A DNA stretch of 64,000 nucleotides, taken from contig CM034130.1 of assembly GCA_019914995.1 (NCBI GenBank), forward strand, positions 2,728,001 through 2,792,000, given 5' to 3'. Shown piece by piece: positions 33,301-58,933 of this stretch. Every line of letters begins with the position of its first letter. Positions within the stretch are counted from its first letter, which is position 1. The translations under genes and the position numbers were made by a program. Source of the stretch: Acanthochlamys bracteata. Lineage: Eukaryota > Streptophyta > Magnoliopsida > Pandanales > Velloziaceae. The notes beneath the pieces are model-generated. The model was not told where the DNA came from and ran no database searches. It worked only from the letters and a program-made list of their open reading frames with translations.

Positions 33301-36300
33301 TAGCCACTCATATTAATATTACACACAATAATATTGTATAAAAAATAAAATATAAAAAAAAAAAGAAAAAAGTAAATTTGAAGAATTTTTCGTTTTTAAT
33401 CTGATCTTTCTTCTGTCTCTCGTTCGGCTCTCGACTTCTCTCCGGATTGCTGTCAGTAGTTTTTACCCAATCCTATTGCTTTTTTCTTCCCCCCTTTCCT
33501 CACTTCTGGCCGTTCTTCTTTTATGGACTCCAAAATCCTCTCTACAAGAAATACTTATGAAATAGAGCTTTTTTATCTTTCAAAAAAATAAATTCTATTT
33601 TTTTATCTTTCAAGAAAGATAAAAATAATTTATTATTACTTATTAATTACAGGTTAATTCAGACGTTATTATTAATTATGATATATTAATCTCGAGGAGG
33701 CTGCAATCTGTGCGGCGGACAGGGAGGAATACCTGCCGGAACCCCACCACGTGCGAATGTTCGAAACTGAAAACCCTAGTAACTGACTCTTTTCCGGGTC
33801 TACATTTTATACAGAAACTGCTAGTAGAAAAATGAAAAAAGAAATTACGCAAACCAACAAATTAGGTGTTGCTGAAATCAAAGGTTTGGAATTATTTTAA
33901 AAACTTCTACAAAAATTATAAGTTTTTTTAAAATAAGTTTACTTTTCCTATTTAGAAAAGCTATATATATAATAATTATATGGCATATAATTTATTTTAA
34001 AAAGATTTCAATATTTTAAGATATTGTAAATTTTTTGAAAAATAAAATCTAAGAACATAAGTTGAAAAAATTATTATCGAATAATTCTTAAATTTGAAGT
34101 AAATAATTTTATAAAACGTTTGAAAGTATTTATAAGAATAATTAATAAAAATAAGCTTGTAAGAATCTAATTTTATAAATATTTAAAAATAAAAGTATGT
34201 ATAATTATTTCATAAATTATAATTTATACATATATTTTAAATTTATAAAAACAATTTTAGAAAATTGTACATAAATTTTATAGAGTTGAGAAAAAGTTTT
34301 CGGTAGTGATAGAACTCTCAGAAAAGCTAACTATATTATAAAAAAACTTTCTAATATTATAAAGTATAAGTATTTAAAAAACTCAAACAAATATCTTTTC
34401 CTTAATTGTTTATATAAGATCAACAGAACATTCACTCAAACCCCACCCATGTGAGCGGAACCAAATCCCTCGTCTCCTCTCTAAAAAGTATAATAAAATT
34501 TGGAGTTCATGCAACAGTTGGGTTTCTTTTTTTTTTTTTAAATGCTTCATGCAACAAGCGACCAAGGCTTTCATGCTCCTTCGATTAATGAATAACAAAT
34601 TAACTTTTCTACATATAATAATTAAAACAGAAACAACAAATTAACTTGGAATCCTATACTTCCCACACTAGGCTTCTCCGCCGCTAATTCAGCAACTCGT
34701 CCAAATATTCTACGCTATTTTAGTATTTATACTATATGGTAATGCTAAATATAATAGTTAACCAAGTAGGTGTTTATTTTTTTAAAATTGAACCTATCAC
34801 AAAGTTCAACTTCGGCGATGAAATTATTGGGTTTTTGTTTTTCTTAGTTTCCTAATCCAATGCAAAGAGGTAGTGATTCCTTTGGTCATGCTAGCTGAGT
34901 ACTTATTCACCATACCTGCTATTAAAATAATCTGCATTATTCTAACAATAATACAGGTAAGTAGCAACTGCGCGCAGAGAGACAAACTACATTGATCGGT
35001 GATAATGTTGTTTAATTAACTAGCTATAACTACTAGAAGAAGTTGGCAAAGGTGTCAAAAAGGTTAAAACTTGATACAACTGTTACATGTTATCGATGCT
35101 TAATTGATTATTATAAATACATCTATACCACTTTCTAGTTAGTGTCTACTTAGTTTGTAGTACTAAAGTCAATTGATTAATCGCAATGAGTGCAGACATA
35201 AAGTTAAAAGTTAAAACCCACTCGTGAAGCCTTAAAATTGTCGTTTTATACTTGTAATCGTAGTACGGATAGAACAGAGGTACAGCTCTCTATTGACTAT
35301 TTTAGTATTTATGAGCTCGCACAGTTGCACTGCATATGCTTTAATTTAATTAGAGAAAAATTTTCATTTACAACTTGACAGTCTGCTAATTATGATATGG
35401 TTGAAATAAGAAATAAAGCATACTTGTCACAACCCGATGCATATAGGTCAATGTAGAAACCGTTCGTCTGTAATTTAAATTGGTCCGGACCTTGAAGTAA
35501 CATATCTATGCAGTCTATTCGAATTGATTCGGATCAATCCGGCATCCGATCGAATATGTCAACTTGAGAGTTTTAACTTTAAAAAAATGGAAGAACTTAC
35601 AAGTAATAAATTGAATAACCTACAAGCAATAAAACCAATTCATCGCGGTTGTAGAATTTTTCTTTTTTGAAAAATAAAGACATTCCAAAATATTTTTATC
35701 TTTTTTGAAAAACGAACTCTATTTTTTTTTACTTTCAAAAAATAATAAAAATATGCATAAAAAAATCTCACTCTGTAGAATTTTTCTATATTTTCTAAAT
35801 TTTTAAATAAATTTTTTATATATTTATAAAATATATATTAAAAAATATAAAATAGAAAAAAATTGATAAGCGATTTTGAAATCTTTGCATACAAATGCTC
35901 ATCGAACAGAGAAATCCATGCAATAATCCTCTTGCTTCTCCTCTTTTTAATTTTCTTTGGCCCCATGATATCTTTCTTTATTTCCTTCTTCTTTCTTTAA
36001 TGTTTTTCTTATTTTGATTTCTTTCTCTTCTTTACCTACAAAGCATATAAAATTTAGCTTATAAAATATAAAAATCAATCTTAAGCTATATCAAAAGATA
36101 TTAACAAGCATATATAAAATATATGTTTATCAATTATCATCAAAACCATCAAAACTAACATCAAATTCCAACAATTTTCTCCTTTTTTGTGATGGCAAAA
36201 TAAATTAAAAATTATTGATTTATGATTCTACAAAGCATAATGATTATTCATTACAAACAAAAGAGAGATTGTTTTTGTTACCAAAAAGAGTGTAAGAATT

Positions 36301-39300
36301 CTTTCGATTCTCTTTTAATAAATTATCCTCCTTACTGAATGTATTATTGGCACTTCTATTTTTCTGCGTATAATAATTCTTTTCTCTCTCCTTTTTTTTG
36401 TCATCACAAAAAGAGTGGAAGATTATTGAGCAATTTGTAATATTTACGTAGAATCATAATTGAGATAAGATGCTCATGAAAGATTTATAAAGCATATAGT
36501 TATAATGCATAAGAAATGTATTCATATAATTTAGGAAGCAACATGGCTGTATATTTTACCTTAATTTATCTTTGCTGAAAAGGATATACCTCACCATATC
36601 TTGCTGATAAAGATTTGTCCTCATGTTTATACTTGAGAAAAACATGTTGAATTTCTACCCCTTACAAGTGTAATGTATGCCTTACTTCTTATTATATTCT
36701 TATATTTGTGTTGATGGTGCACAATAAGAGCAGCTCTTGGTTGTACAGAATATTTAATAAAAAGTTATTTCTTCTCTATTTGAGCTGCAGTTGGTTATTC
36801 TTCGACTATTTTTGTATATAAATATATTTCCTCACTGTTTTCATCCAAAATATATTACTACAAATATCTCTTCTCGGCCATGAATTAGCTCAATATAGTG
36901 CAGTAAATATAACTAAAAAAGTGCAAAATAAAATTTTCCTTCAGATTTTACAAACATAACTCAAATTAGTAATATTTATCAAACGAGAAACTTATTTAAA
37001 AACTCATTAAAATCATCATTTTAAAAACAATTTTACGATACATCCAGATCAATACGATAATTTATAAAATTATGTCATACAAATTCACAATGTTATGTAG
37101 CAATTGCATTCAACAATTGGCCAAAAAGAGTCAAGAGAGAATTTTATCCATACCTTATTTGTGCTTTATTGTTTTACTTGACAAAGAGAATTTTCGTGTG
37201 ATATATGTCAACTAATCCCTTTTACAGTCATCAACTATTTGATTTTGAATCAATAGAAACTTTTCAAGCAAGTTTAGCAATCCATTTTTAGAAAATTCTT
37301 TCTTACAGAAGATGACACTTTACTACCAGTAAGAAGAGCGTTGCATGTCCTTGTTAGCACACAATAGATCCAGTAAATATTTATTGACTTGCAGAGAAAA
37401 AATATCTCATATAGATCATATTTTTCTTTACCAGGACATTTGGACTTCTCTTCCTTAATATGTGCTTTCATTGTACAAAGGCATAATCTTCTTATTGTTG
37501 ATGTACTTAATAACCTCTCATCTCAATAAAAACCTGCGTATAGAAGAATTAGTAAGAAATTTTTCCAGCAAGCAAGTTGTAATTCTAGCAAAGTGCTTTG
37601 CTTTTGATGAAGTAGGCATTTGTTTTTTCACTTGCAAAGGCATTCAGTTACCTAAAATTAAATAGCATTTCACAAGACATCAGACTCATAGCATTTCTCC
37701 TGCAGGAACCAGTGTGAGTTCACATAAATCTCATTATATTATATGTATACTTTCCTCATTCTTTGACTTTGGTTCCTCATTTTGCCATAGCTAGATGATA
37801 GTATATATGTATCCTTATTTCAACAACATGATAGATTCTATAACTACTTTCTTATTCTATAGAATATAATTTTAATACTTTCACTTAATTTATTTCTTTT
37901 AGCATCAAAAGATCTTCAATAAATATTATTATGCACAAGGGCTCACAACTTTTTTAACGATTTACCATTTGATGAATAATATCTTCCACAAAAAATATAT
38001 ATTATCATAAGCTTTCAATAAGTTTTCAGAACACATAAGAAAGCACATTTATAGCTCACTTGAAAACAAAACCATTAATTAAACATACTTTTCAAAGATA
38101 ACGAATTCATGAAAATTTATACTAGCAAATAAAGTATGTTCGTAAAATCTTTTCGCAATATTCACAATTATTTTGAAAGATTCATTCACACTCTAAAAAT
38201 AATTATGCATCAAGGCCATGAGATCTTGACATATCTCAAAAATTAATATAAGGACAATATACTTACTTTTTGATTGAGATATATATTTTTTTATTTTTAA
38301 ATAATAAATATATAGGGTACATGTTGATGACTTTTTGTGAATATTACTGAACTTAAACTTGAATACAAATGATGTAATTTGGAAAGACTCATTGCATTTC
38401 AATGGTTTCAACAGAGAGTTGTTAATATTCTCTTAAGATTCCAGTTGGCTATTCATTTGCTGAAATGTACATTTCTTCATTGTTTTCAACTAAACCTATA
38501 AAACAGCTCTCATATAGGCGTCGCAGGGGTTTTCAGATTTGATTTTTATTTTAATTAGACCTTTGATAAAAATAAATCTTGAAGGCTTGGAAATGATATT
38601 TTGAATTGTAGAATCTAAGTCTCTATACCATAGATGTCCACTTTTCTGCAAGCTTTCAACTAGACAATTTTATGGTTAGAAAATCATCAATATATGACAC
38701 ATATGTCTTACATTTTCTCTTACAGTAAAGTGCTTCTATTCAGATGCAATTTCGTTGATAATTTTTTGTTTATCAAGGTAAAAGATCAATCATCAAAGTT
38801 TGCGCAATATTCTAATGATTTACACATTGTTGGACACTAGTGTTGCCACAAATTATACTTTCTTTACTTTGTATTTCTCTTGCAACTATTAGTAGCATAT
38901 ATACCAAATAAAAAGGTTCTAAAACATCATTAACACATACATTAATATCTATTAAAAATTTGGATATCCAAGATTCATAAATTTCAGTCAAAGATGAATT
39001 GCAATAACTTTCATTTATATTTATAGACTAATAACATCAAATAATTTGGCAATCATCAAAGTCATTATAGGAATGAATTACTTACATCACCGTTGAAGAG
39101 TTTATAGAAAAAAACTTATCTAATTGGTATATAAAATTTTTTATTTCTAAAGTGTTGATGATTTTGAGAGTTTTTTTACATCTATATTTTTTTATTTAGA
39201 CCATAGTTTTTCGTTAATTTGGAATGATGAGTTACATATTCATTATTGCTTACAACATAAGAGGTGGATGGATTACCTTTCAAAATAATCAAATGTTTAG

Positions 39301-42300
39301 TAGTAAAGCATTTAGCACTTGTATTAAAGGGATTGTTGCTTACCTCTTTCGAAAACAGTTGCTCTAAGGAACCAATGTTCCTCTTACCTTATTATTTTCA
39401 TACCAATAAGAACTTCCCTTATGACCCTTTCTACTATAATGAAAATACTTAATCAAGGAGATAGAAGATATCTGCAAAACAGTAGAATTATTAGCATTAG
39501 AGCAACTAGTTGTTTTAGTATAAGAATAATATTTTACTTTTTCCGCAAATGGTTGCTACTGCGATGATGTCTATTGCCGTTACCTTTCTTTCTAAATGAT
39601 CTTACTAGATAAGCATCTTAATGTGTTTTCTTTGCTTTCAGTTGCCTTACCTCGTCTTTTAACATCATAGATTTCGTGAGATATGATTTGTTGGCCATAT
39701 AGACCTTGGTCAGCTCCTCATTCAAGTCGTTGCATTTTGCATATAATTCACCATTTACTTCTTCCAACTTATAGATCTTATCATATATATTTTCGGAGGT
39801 TGAAGCACATGAAGGGCCAAAGGTACTAAAATATGAGCCATCAATCTTTCATGCAGCCTGGCATTTTGTTCAATCAGTCCTCTATTTTCAACTTGAAGTG
39901 CATACACTTTAACAGTCATATGATCATAATCAACACTTAATGAATCATTTATAACATTTATCTTATCTTCAAGAATATCTTTTAATGTGAATTCTTTTTT
40001 AATTAATATTGCATTCTTATCATTGATTTCATTCAAGCAATGTTTCATAATTCTATTTTTGCTGTTCTCATCTATGTATTGCATACAAATTATAGAACGC
40101 TTTTTACAAATCAATATTTAAATCATCACTTTCAGAAGAGCTTACCTCAGAGGAGTATTCACTATTGACCATCATACAATGAATCATTTCGTCTTGCTGA
40201 TTTCTTATGATTATGCCTACATCAAAAAATGCTTTATTTTTATCATGCTTACTTGGTTCAGCAAGTTTCTCACTACATTTCTTCATGCATTTCTTCCAAT
40301 TTGTATCGTATTTCTTTACCTATACAATAAAGATAAGTATGATTAAATAGTTCAGAATTCAAAGTACGACAGAGTAATTACATAGCATAAGAATTCAAAA
40401 AAGTAAAGTTATGGTTTTCTGGAATTTGTTTGGTACCTTTAACTCCTTTTACAATCATCCATAACATGTAATTTTGAGCCTTTAAAATTACTGTCATTTT
40501 TATCTTCCATTGCAGGTTGTTGTTTTGGTCAAACAATGGAGGGCAATCAAGTGATCTTGCTAATTTCTCAATAAGAGTTAAGTTTGTCATAGGATCTTTT
40601 CCTCAAGGTGGTTAAACTTTTTGTTTGAAGGCCCGCTTGATTTTAATTGTTGTTTAAATCTGTACAACCAACACAAAAAAGGAGGAGTGAATTGAGTTGG
40701 TAGCTAAAAAATTTAATATAATATTTCTAACTGAACAGAGCTTAATTTTCTACAAAATAGCAGCATTACAATCGACTGGACTTAAATAAATTTTCTGTTT
40801 AGTATTTTCTGTTTAGCTCAAGTGCAATTAATATAAGAAAATTATTAACACATAAATACGCAGGATTTATATAGTTTGGCAAATAAATTTGCCTACATCT
40901 ACGGTCACTTTTCGTTAAGAATAAATTCCACTAATCCTTGTCAAATTGGTACAATATTAAGGTAATGCGTTTAGCCAAACATCATTGTCTTAATCGGTTC
41001 TCTTTTTGAGATGAACCACCAACAGCCTACTAGACTCACAAGTCTCTCCGACCGCTAACACACAAGCTTTAGCCAAAACTTTGTGCAAATATGTAGCTTC
41101 TTATAAGACTAGTACAGCTAAAAAGGTTTACCCAAATTCTTCTTACCGAATGTGTTTGTTACAAGCAACTTTAAAGTACAGATTCTCTCTCACAAGATTG
41201 AATTAAACTAAAATAAGGAGAGGATCAAAAGAAATACCGATAGTGTTATCTCAGTAAAGCTCTGGCAGTTGGTGGAGAGTGATAGTGTGTTTTCTCTATA
41301 TAAGATTTTTCTTCTATATAGCTCTGTTTTTTACTTCTTAGTTTCTCTCTCTCATTTTATTTTTCTCTTCTTCTCCTATTATATTTTTCTCTTCTCCGAC
41401 TAAAGAATTTTTGAATCTCTTAGCGGTAGGAAATTCTTCGATTGTCTCCCCCGTGTGCTTGCTAGAGTAATATCAATTTGCTCTTATACGCCGCAGCCAT
41501 TCGGGTTCCATCAAATAGTTCTTCAACGGTTAGATCAACTTGCTCTTGATGGAGGTAAGTAAAATATCCTTCCAGCTAGCACTTATATGTCAATTATTCT
41601 GCTGGTATGATTTGATTTGATCTTTCTTTTTATCATTAAATAATCTTGTCGGTAATTCAATTCTTCCCGCTTGTGCTTCTCTATTTTTTCTGTAGTGTAT
41701 TTTTTTCTTCATTGTAGTGGCACTCGGTATGAAGATGATGATCCGATCAAGTATTGGAGTGGCTCAAGTTCAATTTCAATTTTTCTTCTTAGTTCATCGA
41801 TCACCAGTGATGTGTTAAGTAAAGTATTCATTGGCTCTATGATGGCTTCAAAGAATGAACTTGCTTCTTGTGAGGTACAATGTGTAGGCTTGTAAATGCT
41901 AATAATTTGAAATCTATTATCATCTTGAAATTCTAGAAAGATCAACTCTAACATGCAAAGAAGGGATGTTTGAATTTTATTTTGTAAATTTTATATGAAG
42001 CTCTTTGTAGAATATTTTTTTATCAGCTTTACTGTTTAAATCATTTTGTGTAGTAGTTCTATATAACATGTTATTGTTATATGTCTTTGTAGCAACATAG
42101 TGAATCAAGTGTATGTATGCTATTTGTAATCAATCTTTTACTTTTCTTGTATGAAAATTGAAATTTAATTTTGAGTTCAAATCTTATATGATGATAGAAT
42201 GGTTCTGATGGCAACTTGGCACTATATTTTTTTATGATTTTATATTGTACTTGAAGTGTATGATAGTGGATATAAAGTTCAAAATGTCTTCAAAAATTGG

Positions 42301-42840
42301 CTTCAAACGGATGAGAAAATTTTGATCAAACTTTTTCTGAAAATAGGCTTCAGTGTTGTTTGATTTTCTACAATGCATATTTCTGAATTTTTTTCCAATA
42401 TTTTATAAATTTTTTGAGCTTCTATATATCATAATTTGATGAAATCTTTAGTAAAAATTGTTGTGTATGTTGTTATACCTATGGTAAAAATATCATTCTC
42501 AAACTGAATTTGCATCACGATCAAAACTGCCTCTGAAATCTGTAAGATGATTATTTTCTCTCGAATCAGGATCAGCAACAATCTAGTCAGCTGTTATTCG
42601 TGAAACTTCACTGTTCTGCTCTGATCGATCTGCTCTGTTCTGCTGTTTCAACACTTAACTGATTTTTTCTTGTGCCCGATGTAAAGTTTCTATAAAGTAG
42701 CTGGTTGAACTATAAATATTTATTAGAAAGAATTTATGTTTTCAATTCTGCACAGTTCAGTTAACCCATTAGTTCATATAACTCATAAAATATAATTCTT
42801 AATATTTGTTATTATCAAAATCAATATTGGAATTCCAACA
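30383..42840 (-). mobile_element. Large composite Copia-type LTR element, broken
   Basis: Minus-strand element of about 12.5 kb between ATAAG (30,378-30,382) and ATAAC (42,841-42,845), a near-matching 5-bp duplication. The 5' LTR is 40,648-42,840 (2.19 kb, TGTTGGAATT...AACA). The 3' LTR is 30,383 to about 32,588, clearly diverged (roughly 10-15 percent by eye, so several million years old). A degenerate initiator-Met primer site lies next to the 5' LTR. A gag-like region is at about 39,750-40,590 (FDQNNNLQWKIKMTVILKAQNY; UBN2-like), followed by a zinc-knuckle-like trace and faint pol remnants. A polypurine stretch with an LTR-like start lies at about 36,165, with gene-like and AT-rich sequence beyond it. 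The element therefore contains nested or captured DNA. Long LTRs and this gag style suggest SIRE/Maximus, low confidence. Broken many times; no working protein. Confidence 0.75.
32589..36164. other. Nested or captured DNA inside the large element
   Basis: No intact gene. About 32,590-33,540 resembles decayed retroelement sequence (TCTCGCAAGTGCACGG motif). About 33,690-33,830 is unusually GC-rich and, read on the minus strand, has TATAAAA followed by ACTAGGGTTTTCAG and a short open stretch, like the promoter and 5' end of a plant gene. About 34,400-35,600 is unassigned. About 35,650-35,910 is a MITE of the 846-1102 family. Its presence inside an LTR element points to nested insertion or transduction. 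Confidence 0.45.
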
Positions 42841-43454
42841 ATAACCATTCCTGTGATTTTATTTTTAATATTCTGCTTTTTAAACGATTGACTTTAGTGT
42901 ATTTAAGTCATAAATTCTGGTTTTTTATGGGAAATAATTTTACTTATATATTCGGAGACTTAGACAAATGATTTTAAGGTCAAGTATAAGTGGACGAAAA
43001 GAGTCTGATTCAATTTTCTAAATAGCCATCATAATTTTCCTGTATTAACGATTTTGGTTTCACAAAAATATGCGACTGTGACGACCAAGAAAAAATTGAC
43101 CGTTTGAGACAAATAGGTGATCGGACTCTCTACCTCAAGCCAGCACTGAACCTTATACTTCGTACTATCGTATTAAAAAGTAACCATAGAATATTTTCAG
43201 ATACATAAATATTATTTATGGCCAAATTTTCATACATATTTTATGTGTTTTGATCATTGAACTGGCAATACCAATTAATTTCCAAGCATTTATCTAGGAA
43301 CTATTTACTAAAAGAGCCACAACGAATGAAAACCATTGGCTGTACTAAACTTCGCGGCCTCTGTAAAACCAAATGATCCTTTTATTGGGGATAACTTCAC
43401 TACGGCAACTTTCTTAACCTTCTCAGAGTTATGCTTTCTTATACAACAAAAGAT
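33627..43454 (+). repeat. Left arm of a 9.8-kb inverted repeat
   Basis: This stretch is repeated in reverse complement at 49,103-58,933. It contains most of the large Copia-type element (5' LTR, interior and foreign DNA) and about 615 bp of the 3' flank of receptor kinase E. Sample comparisons along the arm show very high identity, around 98 percent or better, with differences grouped in short patches. The outer end is near AATTTATTATTAC (33,627) and the inner end ATACAACAAAAGAT (43,454). This arm is the source: it lies in its ancestral context between units D and E. Confidence 0.9.
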
Positions 43455-43610
43455 TCATTCATTTAATGTTAATATAGTATCTAATGATTGCTATGATTCC
43501 TTTGGACTGATTGAAGATGATCTTGAGTTTGGTGCACCTGTCGTCGGTTGAGCTTTGAGATGATCAGATTAGGTGACTACAATCTGTATCACTTTTGCCT
43601 TTTGCATTGA
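42841..43610. other. 3' flank of receptor kinase E
   Basis: Non-coding; homologous to 20,962-22,346 downstream of copy D but without the hAT MITE. It shows the empty site of that MITE at about 43,417-43,434. Its first 615 bp are included in the inverted repeat. Confidence 0.65.
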
Positions 43611-46160
43611 TCATGACTTCATAAGTTGAAGAGTTCTTGGAATTGGAGGAGTTTCAACATCTGCAACCTTCTCCAATACCTGAACAACTTGGCCCATCGT
43701 CGGTCGATCGCTTTCATCGTCTTGAATGCACCAGCATGCCACCAGACATGCTCTTTCAACTTCTTCCATATCTGCTTCGCCCTCCAGTCTCTTGTCCAAC
43801 AAAGGAAAAGCATCTCTTTCTTGCAATTTACGTGCTGCGTACAAGGGATAGTAAAATGAACTGTTATTGTCGTCACTGTCAGAATTCCTCTTCCCTGATA
43901 TGATCTCAAAAAGCATAAGCCCATAGCTATAAACATCAGCTTTGGCAGTGATTGCCATGCCTGATATCCATTCTGGTGCCAGGTAACCAAAAGTGCCGCG
44001 CAATGTGGTCAAGACCCTGCTGAAATCCCTACCCATGAGTTTTGCTAGCCCAAAATCTGCAACCTTTGCGTTGAACGAGGAGTCTAGCAGGATGTTTTCA
44101 GGCTTGATGTCACAGTGTATGATTCGGTCCCTGCATTCCTCATGAAGATAAGCCAATCCTCTTGCAGTGCCGAGAGCAATATTATATCTTGTGTTCCAAT
44201 CCATGACAGCATTCTTGTTATGAAACAATTGGTGATGGAGAGAACCATTTGGTAGATATTCGTATACTAGCAACCTTTTGTTTCCTTCAGAGCAGAAACC
44301 GCGGAGGCGGACAAGGTTGATGTGTTGGATTGTGCCGACTGTGCTAACCTCAGCCCGGAACTGCTTCTCACCTTGGTGGAAACCTTCTAGCTTCTTCACT
44401 GCAATGGGCATTGGTGATGAATCAGGTAATGTCAACTCCCCTTTGAACACTGAGCCAAACCCTCCTTTGCCAAGCTTGTCGGAGAAATTCTTCGTAACAT
44501 GTTTGAGCTCTCCATAGCTGTACACTACCAAGTTCTCTTTTATGGCCTTTGACATCAAGCTTCTGCGTATTCGTTGTCTCCGAATGATTGAAAGGCAAAT
44601 AGTGCTTGAGCAAAGTAGTACAGCCGCTGAGCTAATAGCAACAACCAGAGTAGTGCTTCTTGCCTTTCTATGCTTAGAATAACTTGCTAAATCATAAGCA
44701 GATACTCGTATATAGATGGCGTTACCAGTTCCGTCATTATATTGTTGAAGGTTATAAAGATCTCCATACCATAACATGCAAGTACTATTGTAGGAATAAG
44801 CAGTGCATGAGCAATTGCTGAGACAAGCCGACTTACATTCGCTAGCATTGCCCAGTATTAGTGTATGAAGATTGACATCGGGTAACCTCATATAGTTCAT
44901 CTGAAAGAACACGTCTGTAGAAGCGGTAGTGTTGGTGTGACATTGCAACGCGGTGTCCCTCTTGCAACCGAAGCTTTGGTCACCAAGCCTCCAGTATTTT
45001 GGAGATGCTGGGCTAAAACTCCTAGTGTCATGAACTCAGAATTAGTTATCTATAAATTAATAAAGCTACGTACGATTCAACAACTACTATAAACATAATT
45101 TTACTTTTTTGAGATAAAAAGAGGATTTCCTTAGTTTCCTTTTGCCCGGAAAATGTTAACATCTCTTGTACCTGATGCAATCGCATGGCGGGGAGGCCCC
45201 CTCATTACATATTCCAAATGGGCCACAGCGGCCATAAACGGAGCACTGGAACCTTGGTCCTTTGTAGAAGAGAGCCCAGTTGCTTCCGCCGCTGATCAAC
45301 GCCTGCCCCAGATAATCCCCTGAACTGTGCGCCACGTCCTCGAGTATAAAATTCATGCTCTTTAATTCATTGGCAACCGAGTAAGTGAAGTAGCTCTCAT
45401 TCGCATTGTCGACATATGTATATGTAATATTAATAGGATACGCAGGTGGTACTTTAATCAGCATCTCCGGAATGTTGCTGAATGATTGGCCTGTCCACAA
45501 TCCCGTGGTCCAGTAGGCTTTCGTCGATCGCCACTTTAAAAAGAACTGGCTCGTCCCGTTCTCGTCAATTGACAAAGAAAACGGACCGGGTGATGGATCG
45601 TCGCTGGTATTCCATGAAGTCAGCACTTGTACTTGCTTGGTCAGTTTGTTCCTTCCCATCTTTAAACCGGGCAACACGAGATGCGTTGGGTGGTCGAAGC
45701 TTTGCCATATCACACTACCGTCATCTTTAATCAGAAGAAGATTTCCGGTGTCTCTTAGTATTACAGCAGTAGTATTGGGTTTGGATATTGAAGTTATGTT
45801 GGAGGACCATATCAAGGTTTTGGACTGTGAAAGGAAAAGAACTAGATTGCCATCATCGGAAATTTTGAACTCGGTTGCTTTTGGATCGGAAAGTGGTGTT
45901 TCTCTGTTGGCGATCCAGACTACATTGAGCTGGGTTTTGGGGAAATTGTTCAACCAAATGCCAAGGTAGTAGCTGGACGAGTTACCTGGTTGGAAGAAGC
46001 CAAAAGCGAAGGTCCCATTGCTGGAGACCAGAGTCTTGTCGCCAGAGATAGATTGGTTATGTCTTAAAGTATCTGCATACCCAGAAGCCAGTGAAGTTTG
46101 AGAATAGGTAGTGAGACAGTTTAGAGCTAAGAAGAGCATGAAGCTGGTCTTTTCCAACAT
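43611..46160 (-). CDS. G-type lectin S-receptor-like Ser/Thr kinase, copy E
   Basis: Exon 1 is 46,160-45,172 and exon 2 is 45,021-43,611, with a 150-nt intron at the shared position, giving 799 residues. It has a signal peptide (MLEKTSFMLFLALNCLTTYSQ), bulb-lectin, S-locus, EGF/PAN and transmembrane helix (about 455-476). The kinase has GKGGFGSVFKG, IAVKK, HCDIKPEN (about 632) and DFGLAK, non-RD as in its paralogues. It is the most diverged of the three intact copies in the extracellular half (VPPAYPINITYTYVDNANES), where ligand contacts would lie, while the kinase stays close to B and C. It sits alone in the 5.65-kb spacer of the giant inverted repeat, so recombination between the arms could flip it. 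No TATA box is seen at the place used by B and C, so its promoter may differ. Otherwise intact. Confidence 0.92.
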
Positions 46161-46680
46161 TCTTGGAATCTTGGTAAATAGAAAAATGTTCTAGTTTGTA
46201 GCTAGCTACTAGAGAAGGAAATATATAACATTTTGTTTTTTGGTTGATGTGTTGTCATCGTATTTTTCTAATTTTCAGTCAGCAGATAGTAAAAGCAGCT
46301 TAATTAGTGGGCGGGTGGTTGGTTTAGATTCGGCGTGCTCGGCAAGGAATAAGGAAAGACTTGAAGATCTCTACGCGCATGCGTAGTGGACGGGTTGTTT
46401 GTTTAGAATTTAAAAGAAGGGTCGTTTGCAATTACTTATTTTAAAAATATGATTTTTTTAAAAATAAATAGTTAAAAAGTAAATGATATAATAAGTTTTA
46501 AAAATTATCAAGTAGTCCCAAAACTGAACGAAAGACTTGAAATTTCTACTGAAGACTAAAACCGAAGTTTGAGATCGTACGCGCTGAACGGTTGACAAGG
46601 GAGAAAGTAAGTTAACCTTCTGTTTTCTGTGCTCGCATTTTCTACCTCCTTAGGAAATCGCTATATGACATTATAATATG
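46161..46680 (-). promoter_or_regulatory. Upstream region of receptor kinase E
   Basis: Shares the leader (GTAGCTAGCTACTAGAGAAGG) and scattered blocks with B and C. It is shorter and rearranged, with an insertion of AT-rich DNA around 46,430-46,520. The block with AACGGTTGACAAGGGAGAAAG at about 46,597 is kept. The TATATAAAGA of B and C is not. Confidence 0.45.
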
Positions 46681-46689
46681 CATCAATAT

Positions 46690-46970
46690 ATGATATTCGA
46701 ATGGGATGGGCTAGCTTCTAAGGTTTCAAATACAAAATAATCAAACTTGTTTGTGAATAATTCAAGGAAAACCATACTCCATCGTTGCAGACTCCGAACG
46801 GGACCGCTAAGGCCATAAACAACACACTGAGATTTGGGCTCTGACGAGAACTAAATTGAATCATTGCTGCCGTTAGGCACCAACATTCTTTAGAATACCA
46901 ACGTGAACCTACCAAGCGAAGTAGTTCTCTTTCTCATTGTTGACATATGTAAAATTAATTACGCAGATTA
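46690..46970 (-). pseudogene. S-domain and intron fragment of the second subtype, upstream of copy E
   Basis: The minus strand reads through NGSNDSI and SEPKSQCVVYGLSGPFGVCNDGVW, the end of the S-locus/EGF part, then sequence shared with the intron side of copy A (ACAAAATAATCAAACTTGTT, AATTCAAGGAAAACCATACT). It is longer than the equivalent fragments upstream of B, C and D and is the clearest link between those fragments and copy A. Confidence 0.65.
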
Positions 46971-46972
46971 TG

Positions 46973-47330
46973 TTAAATATCGTAAAGTTATTTTGTTAAA
47001 TATTAACAAGTAGTTTATTAAAATATAACAGATTATATTCATAATGGAAGGCTAAAAATTCAGAAAAATTAATCATTAATCAAAAAGTTGAAAAATCAAT
47101 GATTAAAAATTTTGAAATATTCTTTGAAAGACGAAAAATAAAATAATTTGAATAATTAATGAAAAAATAAAAGATTAATTATTTAGAAATTCAAAAATGT
47201 AGCTATACACACTATATATATGGATGAAAGATATTTTTTTAAAACATCATTCACAATAGTTATAACATTAAATATGAGAAATAAAATAAAATATTCTAGT
47301 AATAATTTTTACTTATGTGATTATTTCATT
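46973..47330 (+). mobile_element. Decayed LTR related to the 22,780 Copia-type family
   Basis: Aligned with the 581-bp LTR at 22,780-23,360 it shares the order of blocks (ATTCATA-TG-AA-GC, AAAAAGTTG-AA--CAA-G, the AATTAATG-GAA-A-GAAA-GA stretch, TATATGGATGA-AGA-ATTT). It is much more AT-rich and heavily changed, as expected from long-term methylated-C decay. It is a fossil LTR fragment, older than the element in copy D, sitting within the second-subtype flank. Confidence 0.5.
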
Positions 47331-48140
47331 TTTTGTTGTAGCAGAGTTTTAAATAACTGCAAAGCTGGCGGCAGCTGACAGAAGGAAGGAATAAATATGA
47401 GATCCAAAGTTGATTTCTGATAAGATAAGAACAGGCAGAGAGTGTAACGCTCTTGATTGGTTAACTTAAATTGCATTAGTCAATCATAGTTATTCCTGCG
47501 ACTTTATTTCTAATATGCAGTTTTACAAAACATTGACTTTAGTGTATTTTAGTCCTAAGAGTTTTTGTTTTTTATTGGAAAATATGTACTTGTTTCGATT
47601 TTTGATGAAAGATGTTCACAGAATGGCATCATTATCATTGAGTGGCGGTAGATGTCCTAGAAGCAACTGCAACTCTGCAAGCGTGAGAATAGATGAGATT
47701 ATCAAACTTCTCAACTAAATATAAACTTTTATGATTATATACCATTAAAATAATTTAATGTTTAATAAAATCGGTAGAATTAATTTTTTTTAGAATTTTA
47801 TGAGTTTATTTTTGAGAGAATTTTTTATAATTACTAAAAGTTGAAGGTTTTCTGTAAACTTTAAAGAAGTTTTTTATAAAATTTAATGACATTTTGTACG
47901 AAAGTTTAATTGTGAGGATTTTTTTGTAAAATATAGAAGAGTTTCTTATAAAATTTTAAAAAAATTATAAATATACTACAAAAGTTTTAAAATATTAAAA
48001 CAATTTTAGAAAATATTAAAATATTTGTAAAAGATTTTTAATAGTATTACAAAAATTTATATAAAATTATTGATATAAAGTATTTTATGATTTTATTTTA
48101 AAATTCTAATTTAATGATCTATTTAAGCTGAACGATTTTA
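47331..48140. other. Shared flank of the duplication unit and AT-rich filler
   Basis: About 47,335-47,690 matches about 14,345-14,650 (marker AACTGCAAAGCTGGCGGCAG, then CATTGACTTTAGTGTATT). About 47,700-48,140 is AT-rich with AAAATTTTATA-type repeats and no gene. Confidence 0.5.
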
Positions 48141-48144
48141 TAAA

Positions 48145-48270
48145 AGATTTTGATTTTGACAGGACTGAGAAATAGGTACTAAGACGGTTTAGAGCTAAGA
48201 AGAGCATGAAGCTAGTTCTTGGTAACATTTTGGTGTCTTGCTAATGGTTTATAGCTAGTTACTAGAGAAG
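48145..48270 (-). pseudogene. 5'-end stub of a fifth main-type receptor kinase
   Basis: The minus strand from 48,228 reads MLPRTSFMLFLALNRLSTYF, the signal peptide of the main-type genes, preceded by their leader (AGTAACTAGCTATAAACC). Homology stops after about 24 codons. The rest of the gene is absent, replaced by AT-rich DNA. Confidence 0.75.
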
Positions 48271-49102
48271 GAAATATATAACTTCAGATTATGTGAAGTC
48301 TAAATGTAAATACTTGAAATTTGTATGAAGACTAAAAAAGCAAAAGTAGATTATCTAGAGCGTATTTTAAATGCACGCTAATTAAGTTTTATAAAATTGA
48401 ATTTTATTAAAATTAAATTCGATAAAAGTGAAGTTCGATGGAATCAAATTTTAAATTGATATTTAAAATAAATGAAGTAAAGTTTAGAATTTAATTTTGA
48501 TAAAAATAAAATTTAATATTAAAGTAAAAATAAAATTTGGAGTGATAATTAAAATACATAAAGAAATCAAAATTAAAATCTAAACAATGAAAGTAAAATT
48601 GGATATTTTTTAAATAAACCTATAATCTCGAACCGCAGAGTGTATGCACTGAACGGTTAATATTTAGGGCGTGTTTCAAATGCCCGTAATTAAATTTCGT
48701 GAAAGTGAAAAGTAAGAAGTAGAGTTTCTTGAAAAATAAAATAGAAGTGGAGTTCAGTATTTATGTTTTAATAAGTTTTGAAAGTGTGTTGAAAATTAAA
48801 AAATATAGTTGTATTAAAAAGTATGCAAATAAAAAAATTGAAATTAGAGTTCCGCAAGTAGAAGTAGAGTTCTAAATTTTTTGTGTAATTGAAATATATG
48901 AACTATTCGGAACTCATAATCTGACTGAAAAAAATAAAATTATGGGCGTTTGAAAAACGGGAGAAATATTAAGTTAACCGTCTGCTTTGGTGCTCCCATT
49001 TTCTTCCCCTTAGGAAATTGCAATACGACATTATATTGTAATGGGCTGAGCTCGCTCAGTTATTCAAACCTAGCCCAATAATAACTTATGAAACAATATT
49101 AT
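48271..49102 (-). promoter_or_regulatory. Upstream region of the stub gene, interrupted by MITEs
   Basis: Homologous to the E promoter in two pieces (CTCGAACCGCAGAGTGTATGCACTGAACGGTTAA before 48,661; TTAAGTTAACCGTCTG...CTTAGGAAATTGCAATA from about 48,971). A MITE at about 48,667-48,955 separates them, and a second AT-rich insertion lies at about 48,364-48,600. The region ends abruptly where the right arm of the inverted repeat begins. Confidence 0.5.
48667..48955. mobile_element. MITE with GGGCGTGTTTCAAATGCCCG ends
   Basis: The left end GGGCGTGTTTCAAATGCCCG and the right end TATGGGCGTTTGAAAAACGG are inverted repeats. The element splits sequence that is continuous upstream of copy E (GAACGGTTGACAAGGGAGAAAG), so the insertion is supported by a paralogous empty site. 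Same family as 4088-4315. Confidence 0.65.
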
Positions 49103-49716
49103 ATCTTTTGTTGTATAAGAAAGCATAACTCTGAGAAGGTTAAGAAAGTTGCCGTAGTGAAGTTATCCCCAATAAAAGGATCATTTGGTTTTACAGAGGC
49201 CGCGAAGTTTAGTACAGCCAATGGTTTTCATTCGTTGTGGCTCTTTTAGTAAATAGTTCCTAGATAAATGCTTGGAAATTAATTGGTATTGCCAGTTCAA
49301 TGATCAAAACACATAAAATATGTATGAAAATTTGGCCATAAATAATATTTATGTATCTGAAAATATTCTATGGTTACTTTTTAATACGATAGTACGAAGT
49401 ATAAGGTTCAGTGCTGGCTTGAGGTAGAGAGTCCGATCACCTATTTGTCTCAAACGGTCAATTTTTTCTTGGTCGTCACAGTCGCATATTTTTGTGAAAC
49501 CAAAATCGTTAATATAGGAAAATTATGATGGCTATTTAGAAAATTGAATCAGACTCTTTTCGTCCACTTATACTTGACCTTAAAATCATTTGTCTAAGTC
49601 TCCGAATATATAAGTAAAATTATTTCCCATAAAAAATCAGAATTTATGACTTAAATACACTAAAGTCAATCGTTTAAAAAGCAGAATATTAAAAATAAAA
49701 TCACAGGAATGGTTAT

Positions 49717-52700
49717 TGTTGGAATTCCAATATTGATTTTGATAATAACAAATATTAAGAATTATATTTTATGAGTTATATGAACTAATGGGTTAACTGA
49801 ACTGTGCAGAATTGAAAATATAAATTCTTTCTAATAAATATTTATAGTTCAACCAGCTACTTTATAAAAACTTTACATCGGGCACAAGAAAAAATCAGTT
49901 AAGTGTTGAAACAGCAGAACAGAGCAGATCGATCAGAGCAGAACAGTGAAGTTTCACGAATAACAGCTGACTAGATTGTTGCTGATCCTGATTCGAGAGA
50001 AAATAATCATCTTACAGATTTCAGAGGCAGTTTTGATCGTGATGCAAATTCAGTTTGAGAATGATATTTTTACCATAGGTATAACAACATACACAACAAT
50101 TTTTACTAAAGATTTCATCAAATTATGATATATAGAAGCTCAAAAAATTTATAAAATATTGGAAAAAAATTCAGAAATATGCATTGTAGAAAATCAAACA
50201 ACACTGAAGCCTATTTTCAGAAAAAGTTTGATCAAAATTTTCTCATCCGTTTGAAGCCAATTTTTGAAGACATTTTGAACTTTATATCCACTATCATACA
50301 CTTCAAGTACAATATAAAATCATAAAAAAATATAGTGCCAAGTTGCCATCAGAACCATTCTATCATCATATAAGATTTGAATTCAAAATTAAATTTCAAT
50401 TTTCATACAAGAAAAGTAAAAGATTCAGTTACAAATAGCATACATACACTTGATTCACTATGTTGCTACAAAGACATATAACAATAACATGTTATATAGA
50501 ACTACTACACAAAATGATTTAAACAGTAAAGCTGATAAAAAAATATTCTACAAAGAGCTTCATATAAAATTTACAAAATAAAATTCAAACATCCCTTCAC
50601 TGCATGTTAGAGTTGATCTTTCTAGAATTTCAAGATGATAATAGATTTCAAATTATTAGCATTTACAAGCCTACACATTGTACCTCACAGTAAGCAAGTT
50701 GCGCTGAAGCCATCATAGAGCCAATGAATACTTTACGAACACATCACCTGACTGATCGATGAACTAAGAAGAAAAATTGAAATTGAACTTGAGCCACTCC
50801 AATACTTGATCAGATCATCATCTTCATACTGAGTGCCACTACAATGAAGAAAAAAATACACTACAGAAAAAATAGAGAAGCACAAGCGGGAAGAATTGAA
50901 TTACCGACAAGATTATTTAATGATAAAAAGAAAGATCAAATCAAATCATACCAGCAGAATAATTGACATATAAGTGCTAGCTGGAAGGATATTTTACTTA
51001 CCTCCATCAAGAGCAAGTTGATCTAACCGTTGAAGAACTATTTGATGGAACCCGAATGGCTGCGGCGTATAAGAGCAAATTGATATTACTCTAGCAAGCA
51101 CACGGGGGAGACAATCGAAGAATTTCCTACCGCTAAGAGATTCAAAAATTCTTTAGTCGGAGAAGAGAAAAATATAATAGAGAAGAAGAGAAAAATAAAA
51201 TGAGAGAGAGAAACTAAGAAGTAAAAAACAGAGCTATATAGAAGAAAAATCTTATATAGAGAAAACACACTATCACTCTCCACCAACTGCCAGAGCTTTA
51301 CTGAGATAACACTATCGGTATTTCTTTTGATCCTCTCCTTATTTTAGTTTAATTCAATCTTGTGAGAGAGAATCTGTACTTTAAAGTTGCTTGTAACAAA
51401 CACATTCGGTAAGAAGAATTTGGGTAAACCTTTTTAGCTGTACTAGTCTTATAAGAAGCTACATATTTGCACAAAGTTTTGGCTAAAGCTTGTGTGTTAG
51501 CGGTCGGAGAGACTTGTGAGTCTAGTAGGTCATTGGTGGTTCATCTCAAAAAGAGAACCGATTAAGACAATGATGTTTGGCTAAACGCATTACCTTAATA
51601 TTGTACCAATTTGACAAGGATTAGTGGAATTTATTCTTAACGAAAAGTGACCGTAGATGTAGGCAAATTTATTTGCCAAACTATATAAATCCTGCGTATT
51701 TATGTGTTAATAATTTTCTTATATTAATTGCACTTGAGCTAAACAGAAAATACTAAACAGAAAATTTATTTAAGTCCAGTCGATTGTAATGCTGCTATTT
51801 TGTAGAAAATTAAGCTCTGTTCAGTTAGAAATATTATATTAAATTTTTTAGCTACCAACTCAATTCACTCCTCCTTTTTTGTGTTGGTTGTACAGATTTA
51901 AACAACAATTAAAATCAAGCGGGCCTTCAAACAAAAAGTTTAACCACCTTGAGGAAAAGATCCTATGACAAACTTAACTCTTATTGAGAAATTAGCAAGA
52001 TCACTTGATTGCCCTCCATTGTTTGACCAAAACAACAACCTGCAATGGAAGATAAAAATGACAGTAATTTTAAAGGCTCAAAATTACATGTTATGGATGA
52101 TTGTAAAAGGAGTTAAAGGTACCAAACAAATTCCAGAAAACCATAACTTTACTTTTTTTGAATTCTTATGCTATGTAATTACTCACATTTATTTCTTTGA
52201 ATTCTGAACTATTTAATCATACTTATCTTTATTGTATAGGTAAAGAAATACGATACAAATTGGAAGAAATGCATGAAGAAATGTAGTGAGAAACTTGCTG
52301 AACCAAGTAAGCATGATAAAAATAAAGCATTTTTTTATGTAGGCATAATCATAAGAAATCAGCAAGACGAAATGATTCATTGTATGATGGTCAATAGTGA
52401 ATACTCCTCTGAGGTAAGCTCTTCTGAAAGTGATGATTTAAATATTGATTTGTAAAAAGCGTTCTATAATTTGTATGCAATACATAGATGAGAACAGCAA
52501 AAATAGAATTATGAAACATTACTTGAATGAAATCAATGATAAGAATGCAATATTAATTAAAAAAGATTCACATTAAAAGATATTCTTGAAGATAAGATAA
52601 ATGCTATAAATGATTCATTAAGTGCTGATTATGATCATATGACTGTTAAAGTGTATGCACTTCAAGTTGAAAATAGAGGACTGATTGAACAAAATGCCAG

Positions 52701-55700
52701 GCTGCATGAAAGATTGATGGCTCATATTTTAGTACCTTTGGCCCTTCATGTGCTTCAACCTCCGAAAATATATATGATAAGATCTATAAGTTGGAAGAAG
52801 TAAATGGTGAATTATATGCAAAATGCAACGACTTGAATGAGGAGCTGACCAAGGTCTATATGGCCAACAAATCATATCTCACGAAATCTATGATGTTAAA
52901 AGACGAGGTAAGGCAACTGAAAGCAAAGAAAACACATTAAGATGCTTATCTAGTAAGATCATTTAGAAAGAAAGGTAACGGCAATAGACATCATCGCAGT
53001 AGCAACCATTTGCGGAAAAAGTAAAATATTATTCTTATACTAAAACAACTAGTTGCTCTAATGCTAATAATTCTACTGTTTTGCAGATATCTTCTATCTC
53101 CTTGATTAAGTATTTTCATTATAGTAGAAAGGGTCATAAGGGAAGTTCTTATTGGTATGAAAATAATAAGGTAAGAGGAACATTGGTTCCTTAGAGCAAC
53201 TGTTTTCGAAAGAGGTAAGCAACAATCCCTTTAATACAAGTGCTAAATGCTTTACTACTAAACATTTGATTATTTTGAAAGGTAATCCATCCACCTCTTA
53301 TGTTGTAAGCAATAATGAATATGTAACTCATCATTCCAAATTAACGAAAAACTATGGTCTAAATAAAAAAAATATAGATGTAAAAAAAACTCTCAAAATC
53401 ATCAACACTTTAGAAATAAAAAAATTTTATATACCAATTAGATAAGTTTTTACTGCAGAAACTCTTCAACGGTGATGTAAGTAATTCATTCCTATAATGA
53501 CTTTGATGATTGCCAAATTATTTGATGTTATTAGTCTATAAATATAAATGAAAGTTATTGCAATTCATCTTTGACTGAAATTTATGAATCTTGGATATCC
53601 AAATTTTTAATAGATATTAATGTATGTGTTAATGATGTTTTAGAACCTTTAGCTGGTATATATGCTACTAATAGTTGCAAGAGAAATACAAAGTAAAGAA
53701 AGTATAATTTGTGGCAACACTAGTGTCCAACAATGTGTAAATCATTAGAATATTGCGCAAACTTTGATGATTGATCTTTTACCTTGATAAACAAAAAATT
53801 ATCAACGAAATTGCATCTGAATAGAAGCACTTTACTGTAAGAGAAAATGTAAGACATATGTGTCATATATTGATGATTTTCTAACCATAAAATTGTCTAG
53901 TTGAAAGCTTGCAGAAAAGTGGACATCTATGGTATAGAGACTTAGATTCTACAATTCAAAATATCATTTCCAAGCCTTCAAGATTTATTTTTATCAAAGG
54001 TCTAATTAAAATAAAAATCAAATCTGAAAACCCCTGCGACGCCTATATGAGAGCTGTTTTATAGGTTTAGTTGAAAACAATGAAGAAATGTACATTTCAA
54101 AAAATGAATAATAAACTGGAATCTTAAGAGAATATTAACAACTCTCTGTTGAAACCATTGAAATGCAATGAGTCTTTCCAAATTACATCATTTGTATTCA
54201 AGTTTAAGTTCAGTAATATTCACAAAAAGTCATCAACATGTACCCTATATATTTATTATTTAAAAATAAAAAAATATATATCTCAATCAAAAAGTAAGTA
54301 TATTGTCCTTATATTAATTTTTGAGATATGTCAAGATCTCATGGCCTTGATGCATAATTATTTTTAGAGTGTGAATGAATCTTTCAAAATAATTGTGAAT
54401 ATTGCGAAAAGATTTTACAGAACATACTTTATTTGCTAGTATAAATTTTCATGAATTCGTTATCTTTGAAAAGTATGTTTAATTAATGGTTTTGTTTTCA
54501 AGTGAGCTATAAATGTGCTTTCTTATGTGTTACTGAAAACTTATTGAAAGCTTATGATAATATATATTTTTATGTGGAAGATATTATTCATCAAATGGTA
54601 AATCGTTAAAAAAAGTTGTGAGCCCTTGTGCATAATAATATTTATTGAAGATCTTTTGATGCTAAAAGAAATAAATTAAGTGAAAGTATTAAAATTATAT
54701 TCTATAGAATAAGAAAGTAGTTATAGAATCTATCATGTTGTTGAAATAAGGATACATATATACTATCATCTAGCTATGGCAAAATGAGGAACCAAAGTCA
54801 AAGAATGAGGAAAGTATACATATAATATAATGAGATTTATGTGAACTCACACTGGTTCCTGCAGGAGAAATGCTATGAGTCTGATGTCTTGTGAAATGCT
54901 ATTTAATTTTAGGTAACTGAATGCCTTTGCAAGTGAAAAAACAAATGCCTACTTCATCAAAAGCAAAGCACTTTGCTAGAATTACAACTTGCTTGCTGGA
55001 AAAATTTCTTACTAATTCTTCTATACGCAGGTTTTTATTGAGATGAGAGGTTATTAAGTACATCAACAATAAGAAGATTATGCCTTTGTACAATGAAAGC
55101 ACATATTAAGGAAGAGAAGTCCAAATGTCCTGGTAAAGAAAAATATGATCTATATGAGATATTTTTTCTCTGCAAGTCAATAAATATTTACTGGATCTAT
55201 TGTGTGCTAACAAGGACATGCAACGCTCTTCTTACTGGTAGTAAAGTGTCATCTTCTGTAAGAAAGAATTTTCTAAAAATGGATTGCTAAACTTGCTTGA
55301 AAAGTTTCTATTGATTCAAAATCAAATAGTTGATGACTGTAAAAGGGATTAGTTGACATATATCACACGAAAATTCTCTTTGTCAAGTAAAACAATAAAG
55401 CACAAATAAGGTATGGATAAATTCTCTCTTGACTCTTTTTGGCCAATTGTTGAATGCAATTGCTACATAACATTGTGAATTTGTATGACATAATTTTATA
55501 AATTATCGTATTGATCTGGATGTATCGTAAAATTGTTTTTAAAATGATGATTTTAATGAGTTTTTAAATAAGTTTCTCGTTTGATAAATATTACTAATTT
55601 GAGTTATGTTTGTAAAATCTGAAGGAAAATTTTATTTTGCACTTTTTTAGTTATATTTACTGCACTATATTGAGCTAATTCATGGCCGAGAAGAGATATT

Positions 55701-56392
55701 TGTAGTAATATATTTTGGATGAAAACAGTGAGGAAATATATTTATATACAAAAATAGTCGAAGAATAACCAACTGCAGCTCAAATAGAGAAGAAATAATT
55801 TTATTAAATATTCTCAGACAACCAAGAGTCTCTTATTATTGTGCACCATCAACACAAATATAAGAATATAATAAGAAGTAAGGCATACATTACACTTGTA
55901 AGGGTAGAAATTCAACATGTTTTTCTCAAGTATAAACATGAGGACAAATCTTTATCAGCAAGATATGGTGAGGTATATCCTTTTCAGCAAAGATAAATTA
56001 AGGTAAAATATACAGCCATGTTGCTTCCTAAATTATATGAATACATTTCTTATGCATTATAACTATATGCTTTATAAATCTTTCATGAGCATCTTATCTC
56101 AATTATGATTCTACGTAAATATTACAAATTGCTCAATAATCTTCCACTCTTTTTGTGATGACAAAAAAAAGGAGAGAGAAAAGAATTATTATACGCAGAA
56201 AAATAGAAGTGCCAATAATACATTCAGTAAGGAGGATAATTTATTAAAAGAGAATCGAAAGAATTCTTACACTCTTTTTGGTAACAAAAACAATCTCTCT
56301 TTTGTTTGTAATGAATAATCATTATGCTTTGTAGAATCATAAATCAATAATTTTTAATTTATTTTGCCATCACAAAAAAGGAGAAAATTGTT
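49717..56392 (+). mobile_element. Partial copy of the large Copia-type element in the right arm
   Basis: Plus-strand copy of the element described at 30,383-42,840: one LTR (49,717-51,907), the primer-site region, a gag-like part (about 51,965-53,300, with a zinc-knuckle-like trace) and decayed downstream sequence up to a purine-rich stretch before an LTR-like start at about 56,393. It has the same state as the left-arm copy, broken many times and non-functional. It arrived by segmental inverted duplication, not by transposition. Confidence 0.75.
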
Positions 56393-58933
56393 GGAATTCT
56401 GATGTTAGTTTTGATGGTTTTGATGATAATTGATAAACATATATTTTATATATGCTTGTTAATATCTTTTGATATAGCTTAAGATTGATTTTTATATTTT
56501 ATAAGCTAAATTTTATATGCTTTGTAGGTAAAGAAGAGAAAGAAATCAAAATAAGAAAAACATTAAAGAAAGAAGAAGGAAATAAAGAAAGATATCACGG
56601 GGCCAAAGAAAATTAAAAGAGGAGAAGCAAGAGGATTCGGTGGCGGATTTCTCTGTTCAAGGAGCATTTGGCGCAGCATTTCAAATACTGCTTATCAATT
56701 TTTTTCTATTTTATATTTTTTAATATATATTTTATAAATATATAAAAAATTTATTTAAAAATTTAGAAAATATAGAAAAATTCTACAGAGTGAGATTTTT
56801 TTATTGCATATTTTTATTATTTTTATGAAAGTAAAAAAAATAGAGTTCGTTTTTCAAAAAAGATAAAAATATTTTGGAATGTCTTTATTTTTCAAAAAAG
56901 AAAAATTCTACAACCGCGATGAATTGGTTTTATTGCTTGTAGGTTATTCAATTTATTACTTGTAAGTTCTTCCATTTTTTTAAAGTTAAAACTCTCAAGT
57001 TGACATATTCGATCGGATGCCGGATTGATCCGAATCAATTCGAATAGACTGCATAGATATGTTACTTCAAGGTCCGGACCAATTTAAATTACAGACGAAC
57101 GGTTTCTACATTGACCTATATGCATCGGGTTGTGACAAGTATGCTTTATTTCTTATTTCAACCATATCATAATTAGCAGACTGTCAAGTTGTAAATGAAA
57201 ATTTTTTCTCTAATTAAATTAAAGCATATGCAGTGCAACTGTGCGAGCTCATAAATACTAAAATAGTCAATAGAGAGCTGTACCTCTGTTCTATCCGTAC
57301 TACGATTACAAGTATAAAACGACAATTTTAAGGCTTCACGAGTGGGTTTTAACCTTTTAACTTTATGTCTGCACTCATTGCGATTAATCAATTGACTTTA
57401 GTACTACAAACTAAGTAGACACTAACTAGAAAGTGGTATAGATGTATTTATAATAATCAATTAAGCATCGATAACATGTAACAGTTGTATCAAGTTTTAA
57501 CCTTTTTGACACCTTTGCCAACTTCTTCTAGTAGTTATAGCTAGTTAATTAAACAACATTATCACCGATCAATGTAGTTTGTCTCTCTGCGCGCAGTTGC
57601 TACTTACCTGTATTATTGTTAGAATAATGCAGATTATTTTAATAGCAGGTATGGTGAATAAGTACTCAGCTAGCATGACCAAAGGAATCACTACCTCTTT
57701 GCATTGGATTAGGAAACTAAGAAAAACAAAAACCCAATAATTTCATCGCCGAAGTTGAACTTTGTGATAGGTTCAATTAAGAAAAATAAACACCTACTTG
57801 GTTAACTATTATATTTAGCATTACCATATAGTATAAATACTAAAATAGCGTAGAATATTTGGACGAGTTGCTGAATTAGCGGCGGAGAAGCCTAGTGTGG
57901 GAAGTATAGGATTCCAAGTTAATTTGTTGTTTCTGTTTTAATTATTATATGTAGAAAAGTTAATTTGTTATTCATTAATCGAAGGAGCATGAAAGCCTTG
58001 GTCGCTTGTTGCATGAAGCATTTAAAAAAAAAAAAGAACCCAACTGTTGCATGAACTCCAAATTTTATTATACTTTTAGAGAGGAGACGAGGGATTTGGT
58101 TCCGCTCACATGGGTGGGGTTTGAGTGAATGTTCTGTTGATCTTATATAAACAATTAAGGAAAAGATATTTGTTTGAGTTTTTTAAATACTTATACTTTA
58201 TAATATTAGAAAGTTTTTTTATAATATAGTTAGCTTTTCTGAGAGTTCTATCACTACCGAAAAACTTTTTCTCAACTCTATAAAATTTATGTACAATTTT
58301 CTAAAATTGTTTTTATAAATTTAAAATATATGTATAAATTATAATTTATGAAATAATTATACATACTTTTATTTTAAATATTTATAAAATTAGATTCTTA
58401 CAAGCTTATTTTTATTAATTTTTCTTATAAATACTTTCAAACGTTTTATAAAATTATTTACTTCAAATTTAAGAATTATTCGATAATAATTTTTTCAACT
58501 TATGTTCTTAGATTTTATTTTTCAAAAAAATTTACAATATCTTAAAATATTGAAATCTTTTTAAAATAAATTATATGCCATATAATTATTATATATATAG
58601 CTTTTCTAAATAGGAAAAGTAAACTTATTTTAAAAACACTTATAATTTTTGTAGAAGTTTTTAAAATAATTCCAAACCTTTGATTTCAGCAACACCTAAT
58701 TTGTTGGTTTGCGTAATTTCTTTTTTCATTTTTCTACTAGCAGTTTCTGTATAAAATGTAGACCCGGAAAAGAGTCAGTTACTAGGGTTTTCAGTTTCGA
58801 ACATTCGCACGTGGTGGGGTTCCGGCAGGTATTCCTCCCTGTCCGCCGCACAGATTGCAGCCTCCTCGAAATTAATATATCATAATTAATAATACGTCTG
58901 AATTAACCTGTAATTAATAAGTAATAATAAATT
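56393..58933. other. Outer part of the right arm: MITE, unassigned DNA and GC-rich gene-like end
   Basis: Mirror of 33,627-36,164. The MITE end is better preserved here (GCATTTGGCGCAGC) than in the left arm. At about 58,735-58,870 a TATAAAA, an AGGGTTTT motif and a GC-rich open stretch resemble the start of a plant gene, cut off at the arm end. No full gene is present; the mirrored short open frames are chance. Confidence 0.5.

Follow-up and report, generated by a model that had tools for sequence, protein, structure and literature searches.

Two nearly identical inverted arms of about 9.8 kb flank an intact G-type lectin receptor-like kinase gene (gene E) of Acanthochlamys bracteata, and this arrangement probably reflects a genuine segmental inverted duplication of recent date, produced by templated repair synthesis. 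It lies in a stretch of 64,000 nucleotides, hereafter the window, on contig C5 (10.8 Mb) of an assembly of 195.5 Mb in 557 contigs. When the window was compared with itself by BLAST, positions 33,626-43,454 were matched on the minus strand by 58,934-49,103, with 98.874% identity over 9,856 columns, 60 mismatches and 45 gap openings; in a global alignment the same arms differ by 80 substitutions and 35 indels in 9,809 aligned bases, the counts varying with the alignment used. The left arm measures 9,829 bp and the right arm 9,832 bp, a match whose length and likeness are beyond chance. According to BLAST, the spacer between them (43,455-49,102; 5,648 bp) is unduplicated, and near-identical inverted arms around an unduplicated spacer are the arrangement of a segmental inverted duplication. 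The window contains no N. A search of the 195.5-Mb assembly, made with two queries jointly spanning the left arm and scoring the best candidates only, returned full-length matches at these two places only among the matches listed. The initial annotation, which had described reverse-complementary arms around an intact receptor kinase, is thereby borne out, its coordinates being right to within one base.

Gene E occupies 43,611-46,160 on the minus strand, inside the spacer, and no coding part of it enters the arms. Its exons (46,160-45,172 and 45,021-43,611) are separated by a 150-bp GT-AG intron, and the spliced frame is open over 799 aa. The exon frames, scanned separately, contain B_lectin and S_locus_glycop, then PAN_2 and a kinase domain, so that all four domains of a G-type lectin receptor-like kinase are present in a single open gene. 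It is one unit of a minus-strand tandem array of such genes, with BLAST placing the units at about 10.6-13.9, 17.1-20.4, 22.2-28.7 (split) and 43.1-46.2 kb. The split unit (22,153-28,691) is interrupted at about 22,779/26,573 by some 3.8 kb bearing direct repeats of 584 bp that are 91% alike in BLAST (22,778-23,360 and 25,990-26,573); a domain scan of 55 pieces from 1-26.7 kb found RVT_2 in two and gag_pre-integrs in one, hits counted over that whole stretch, and the interruption is likely a Copia-type element. Elsewhere in the window, an open frame at 62,517-63,020 has an Auxin_inducible domain (SAUR-type, auxin-responsive; E 1.9e-25), and the stretch 59,620-61,246 has inverted ends of 200 bp, 74% alike, which recur genome-wide; sequence related to this stretch is found at 35,687-35,864, 889-1,062 and 16,680-16,858.

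To judge from the edges of the arms, the left one (33,626-43,454, the plus-strand source) is ancestral and the right one (49,103-58,934, minus strand) is its derived, truncated and inverted copy. The left arm consists of part of a nested insert, the interior of an LTR retrotransposon, a single LTR and, from the 3' side of the gene, 0.6 kb of flank. BLAST alignments run without a break across its inner edge, 43,454: one pairs 43,132-46,234 with 16,903-20,005 and another pairs 43,285-46,234 with 10,604-13,530. Its outer edge, 33,626, sits in the nested insertion, with the remainder of the element to the left. The right arm begins at the copy of a point in the 3' flank of gene E, 157 bp from the stop codon, and terminates in the nested insertion. 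It is this combination, an inner left edge lying in continuous paralogue alignments and a right arm cut both in the gene flank and in the insert, that shows the right arm to be derived. The arms stop within the LTR element, in its nested insert, and within the 3' flank of the gene, and not at the ends of a transposon. Two independent LTR insertions are rejected, because the right arm has one LTR and shares the 0.6 kb of non-element flank. The earlier proposals that the right arm lacks a second LTR, that it starts within a receptor-kinase flank and that a single segmental event rather than two insertions took place all agree with these results: of the two LTRs only that at 40,644-42,814 falls in the arm.

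The element itself is an old LTR retrotransposon (30,383-42,840, minus strand) with TG...CA ends and flanks ATAAG and ATAAC, identical at four of five bases; its empty site is kept in a paralogous flank as ATAGC (20,960-20,964), which, as the left arm lies largely in this element, also speaks for that arm as the original. In BLAST its LTRs (30,379-32,559 and 40,644-42,814) are 83% alike, as against 98.9% for the arms, and the copying is therefore much younger than the insertion of the element. In family copies the LTR is joined straight to the equivalent of about position 36,165, so that the stretch from 32,560 to 36,164 (about 3.6 kb), which separates the left LTR from the interior shared with the family and includes the outer breakpoint at 33,626, has the look of a nested insertion with approximate ends. 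The exact complement of TGGTATCAGAGC, a motif which we take to be the primer-binding site for initiator tRNA-Met, is found at the right interior end in two of the three family copies examined (L059 and L064); it has two changes in the third (L053) and is decayed in the window's own element. At the left interior end lies a tract rich in pyrimidines, and so in purines when the minus strand is read, and the placement of these two features shows the minus strand to be that of the element. A domain scan of 24 interior pieces on the minus strand, each 30 aa or longer (E up to 0.05), detected no retroelement domain, and neither did one of 47 longer pieces taken from the region 29.6-63.3 kb, outside the right arm. 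Any comparison with large retrotransposon derivatives (LARDs: long LTRs, no gag/pol) is confined to the decayed copy that was scanned. Three Pfam hits in the interior pieces (E 0.011-0.023) bear non-retroelement names and were taken as chance.

The differences between the arms look like unpolished long-read consensus rather than ordinary divergence, clustered mutation being an alternative source. Of the 35 indels, 29 are of 1 bp, 14 of these in homopolymers of at least 3, and the ratio of indels to substitutions is 0.44, against 0.06, 0.07, 0.06 and 0.02 in four control pairs from the window (Fisher p 1e-10 to 9e-6). Divergence is higher in the control pairs (6.6-16.2% substitutions), two pairs consist mostly of coding sequence, where indels are kept rare, and one member of the LTR pair is the left arm's own LTR. 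Differences at 8 bp or less from the preceding one number 57 where 9.8 are expected, and such clustering is also seen in two of the four controls, though far weaker (143 against 101 and 239 against 202 expected). Of 58 clusters of differences, 38 could be compared with paralogues in the genome or the window and 20 had none. The paralogues favoured the left arm in 14 clusters and the right arm in 22, with two ties; among the 15 clusters of at least two columns the left arm was favoured in seven and the right in eight, 12 of them without any vote for the opposite arm, some of these votes coming from one or two paralogues and adjacent clusters being non-independent. The arm that departs from the repeat family thus switches block by block. 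The densest patch, 35,872-35,965, has 23 differences in 94 bp, mostly without a paralogue to judge them. It is the excess of 1-bp indels, the multi-base patches and the alternation of the departing arm that lead to the error-like reading, the pattern expected of long-read consensus where short reads have no unique placement. The initial annotation's concern about a misassembly is justified, and the differences suggest a poor base-level consensus in the arms. No more than 14 of the 29 one-base indels are found in homopolymers of at least 3, which counts against the explanation preferred here.

If the clustered differences are set apart, 15 isolated substitutions (more than 8 bp from any other) are left, or 0.15%, of which 12 are transitions, and the true divergence of the arms may be only about 0.15%. 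Substitution rates in plants are 0.7-1.3e-8 per site per year, which would place the duplication roughly 0.06-0.1 million years ago, or about five times further back if every substitution is real. Arm identity in noisy long-read assemblies may accordingly be underestimated, and ages derived from raw identity would then be too old.

The course of events preferred here is as follows. The array would have been broken at about 49.1 kb, on the right-hand side of gene E, and one of the two ends would have begun synthesis in inverted orientation on the opposite strand, near 43,454, either by fold-back of its own resected strand or by invasion of the sister. Synthesis would have run leftwards for about 9.8 kb, stalled at a 12-bp hairpin (33,600-33,625) and been released, and end joining would have linked the released end with the remaining side of the break (58,935). 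The unduplicated spacer follows directly if the resected end folded back. The copied tract stops at the foot of the hairpin. Work by Wicker in 2010 reportedly describes break repair in plants by synthesis-dependent strand annealing with filler DNA. The junctions themselves are candidates, read from the assembled sequence.

Short remnants of another receptor-kinase 5' flank adjoin the inner right junction (48,253-49,035; 46,589-46,675 is 81% identical to 48,947-49,035), and they suggest that the break fell in the old array. By BLAST, the region 47,418-49,035 contains remnants of downstream and upstream receptor-kinase flanks with no coding match between them, and it is perhaps a deleted member of the array. 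Within it, 48,662-48,959 is a MITE-like repeat of about 300 bp with short inverted ends (48,657-48,697 and 48,932-48,972), found at 85-87% in at least 37 other places among the 40 best candidates scored. At the inner junction the arm match starts at 49,103 and the preceding bases simply differ; judging inverted microhomology there requires the sequence that followed 49,102 before the duplication. A target-site duplication around the right arm was considered and rejected: only ACAAT is repeated, at 49,093 and 58,935, with five bases between the first copy and the arm, and by a rough estimate this pair is within chance. No empty site for the right arm was present among the listed genome matches.

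The hairpin at the outer breakpoint, perfect with a 12-bp stem and a 2-base loop, ends 1 bp from that breakpoint and is absent from the right arm. The window contains five perfect hairpins with a stem of at least 10 and a loop of at most 8, two of them with a stem of at least 12; first-order Markov resampling in 2-kb blocks gave 0, 0, 0, 1 and 0 stems of at least 12 in five windows and 2, 2 and 1 stems of at least 10 in three. With three breakpoints, the probability of finding one no further than 2 bp from a hairpin is 0.003 for stems of at least 12, 0.007 for at least 10, 0.031 for at least 9 and 0.075 for at least 8, in a test that was post hoc, made after 33,600-33,625 had been seen, and that is weak at the looser stems. 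No hairpin with a stem of at least 10 was found within 300 bp of the other breakpoints. The hairpin is a lead only, and we consider it doubtful that a chromosomal hairpin stopped repair synthesis and so determined how long a templated inverted duplication became. Were this a general rule, the far ends of such duplications in AT-rich plant genomes could be predicted from hairpins.

An assembly artefact, with a single real arm and a second inverted copy placed between the spacer and the right flank, is unlikely in our judgement. The error-like differences, with their high indel ratio and their close spacing, and the patches, present in both arms, in which only one arm agrees with the family, speak for it, and poor base quality would be expected equally from a false duplication. 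A true recent duplication that short reads could not polish uniquely would, however, give an identical pattern, and the artefact would have to combine two false joins, in a contig free of N, with error-like differences left in both arms. The unduplicated spacer, whose longest self-complementary stretch is about 80 bp, sets aside a simple fold-back read, and since error-like differences occur in both arms, a gap filled with one raw read is a poor account of the right arm. Conversion between inverted arms is established in other palindromes, and an older duplication homogenised from arm to arm, as in the palindromes of Y chromosomes, would also leave facing arms highly identical. We regard this as very improbable here: conversion is unneeded, since the 15 isolated substitutions are in keeping with a young event, and the patches can be put down to errors in alternating blocks.

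Least credible of all is a selected regulatory hairpin, in which double-stranded RNA from the arms would silence the receptor-kinase family or the retrotransposon. In its favour, the 0.6 kb of gene 3' flank adjoining gene E is present in the arms in both orientations, but the arms are without coding sequence of gene E. Moreover, since the element runs on the minus strand, transcription from its 5' LTR in the left arm (40,644-42,840, minus strand) should run leftwards and that from the LTR copy in the right arm (49,743-51,911, plus strand) rightwards, both off gene E, so that the two arms should give same-sense RNA; a hairpin would need a single transcript of about 25 kb. The long double-stranded RNA by read-through that had been suggested for these arms is for these reasons not supported, and silencing from them is speculative. 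Because of the same orientation, we also set aside the idea that an LTR promoter drives gene E or an antisense transcript of it. Recombination between the arms could in principle invert the spacer. No sign of a function was seen in the sequence, and the duplication, which brought no new gene, is most likely a neutral scar bracketing gene E. If the templated duplication is real, it offers a young and datable inverted duplication in a receptor-kinase cluster, and the far end of that duplication carries a candidate stop signal.

In its form the locus resembles the human fold-back inverted duplications described in the part of PMC3907307 drawn on here, which share the inverted copy, the unduplicated spacer of a few kb and the sharp junctions; sequenced spacers there measure 766-70,466 bp, with a median of 3,428 bp, and of 21 junctions sequenced, 13 showed inverted microhomology of 2-8 bp. 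The human events, as that part presents them, are large, with loss of chromosome ends and dicentric intermediates, whereas the duplication in the window is interstitial, 9.8 kb long and rejoined. In yeast, the excerpt of PMC10622511 supports fold-back priming with fill-in by Pol delta. Among plants, the passages used describe synthesis-dependent strand annealing filler in copy-number variants of barley, where 162 insertions and deletions (54%) are shorter than 100 bp (PMC3706897), and break repair by synthesis-dependent strand annealing with filler DNA in rice (PMC4423477). The right arm is like the filler of these passages in being a copy of sequence from another place set at a break, with ends that carry no transposon signature, and unlike it in being long, local and inverted. 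Finally, the rearrangement hotspots in biotic-stress gene clusters of Arabidopsis also combine a tandem cluster of defence-type genes with recent duplication, and nearly all of their duplications are forward tandem, at least in the portion of PMC7033125 considered; against that background the locus looks like an ordinary kind of event that is less usual in being inverted.
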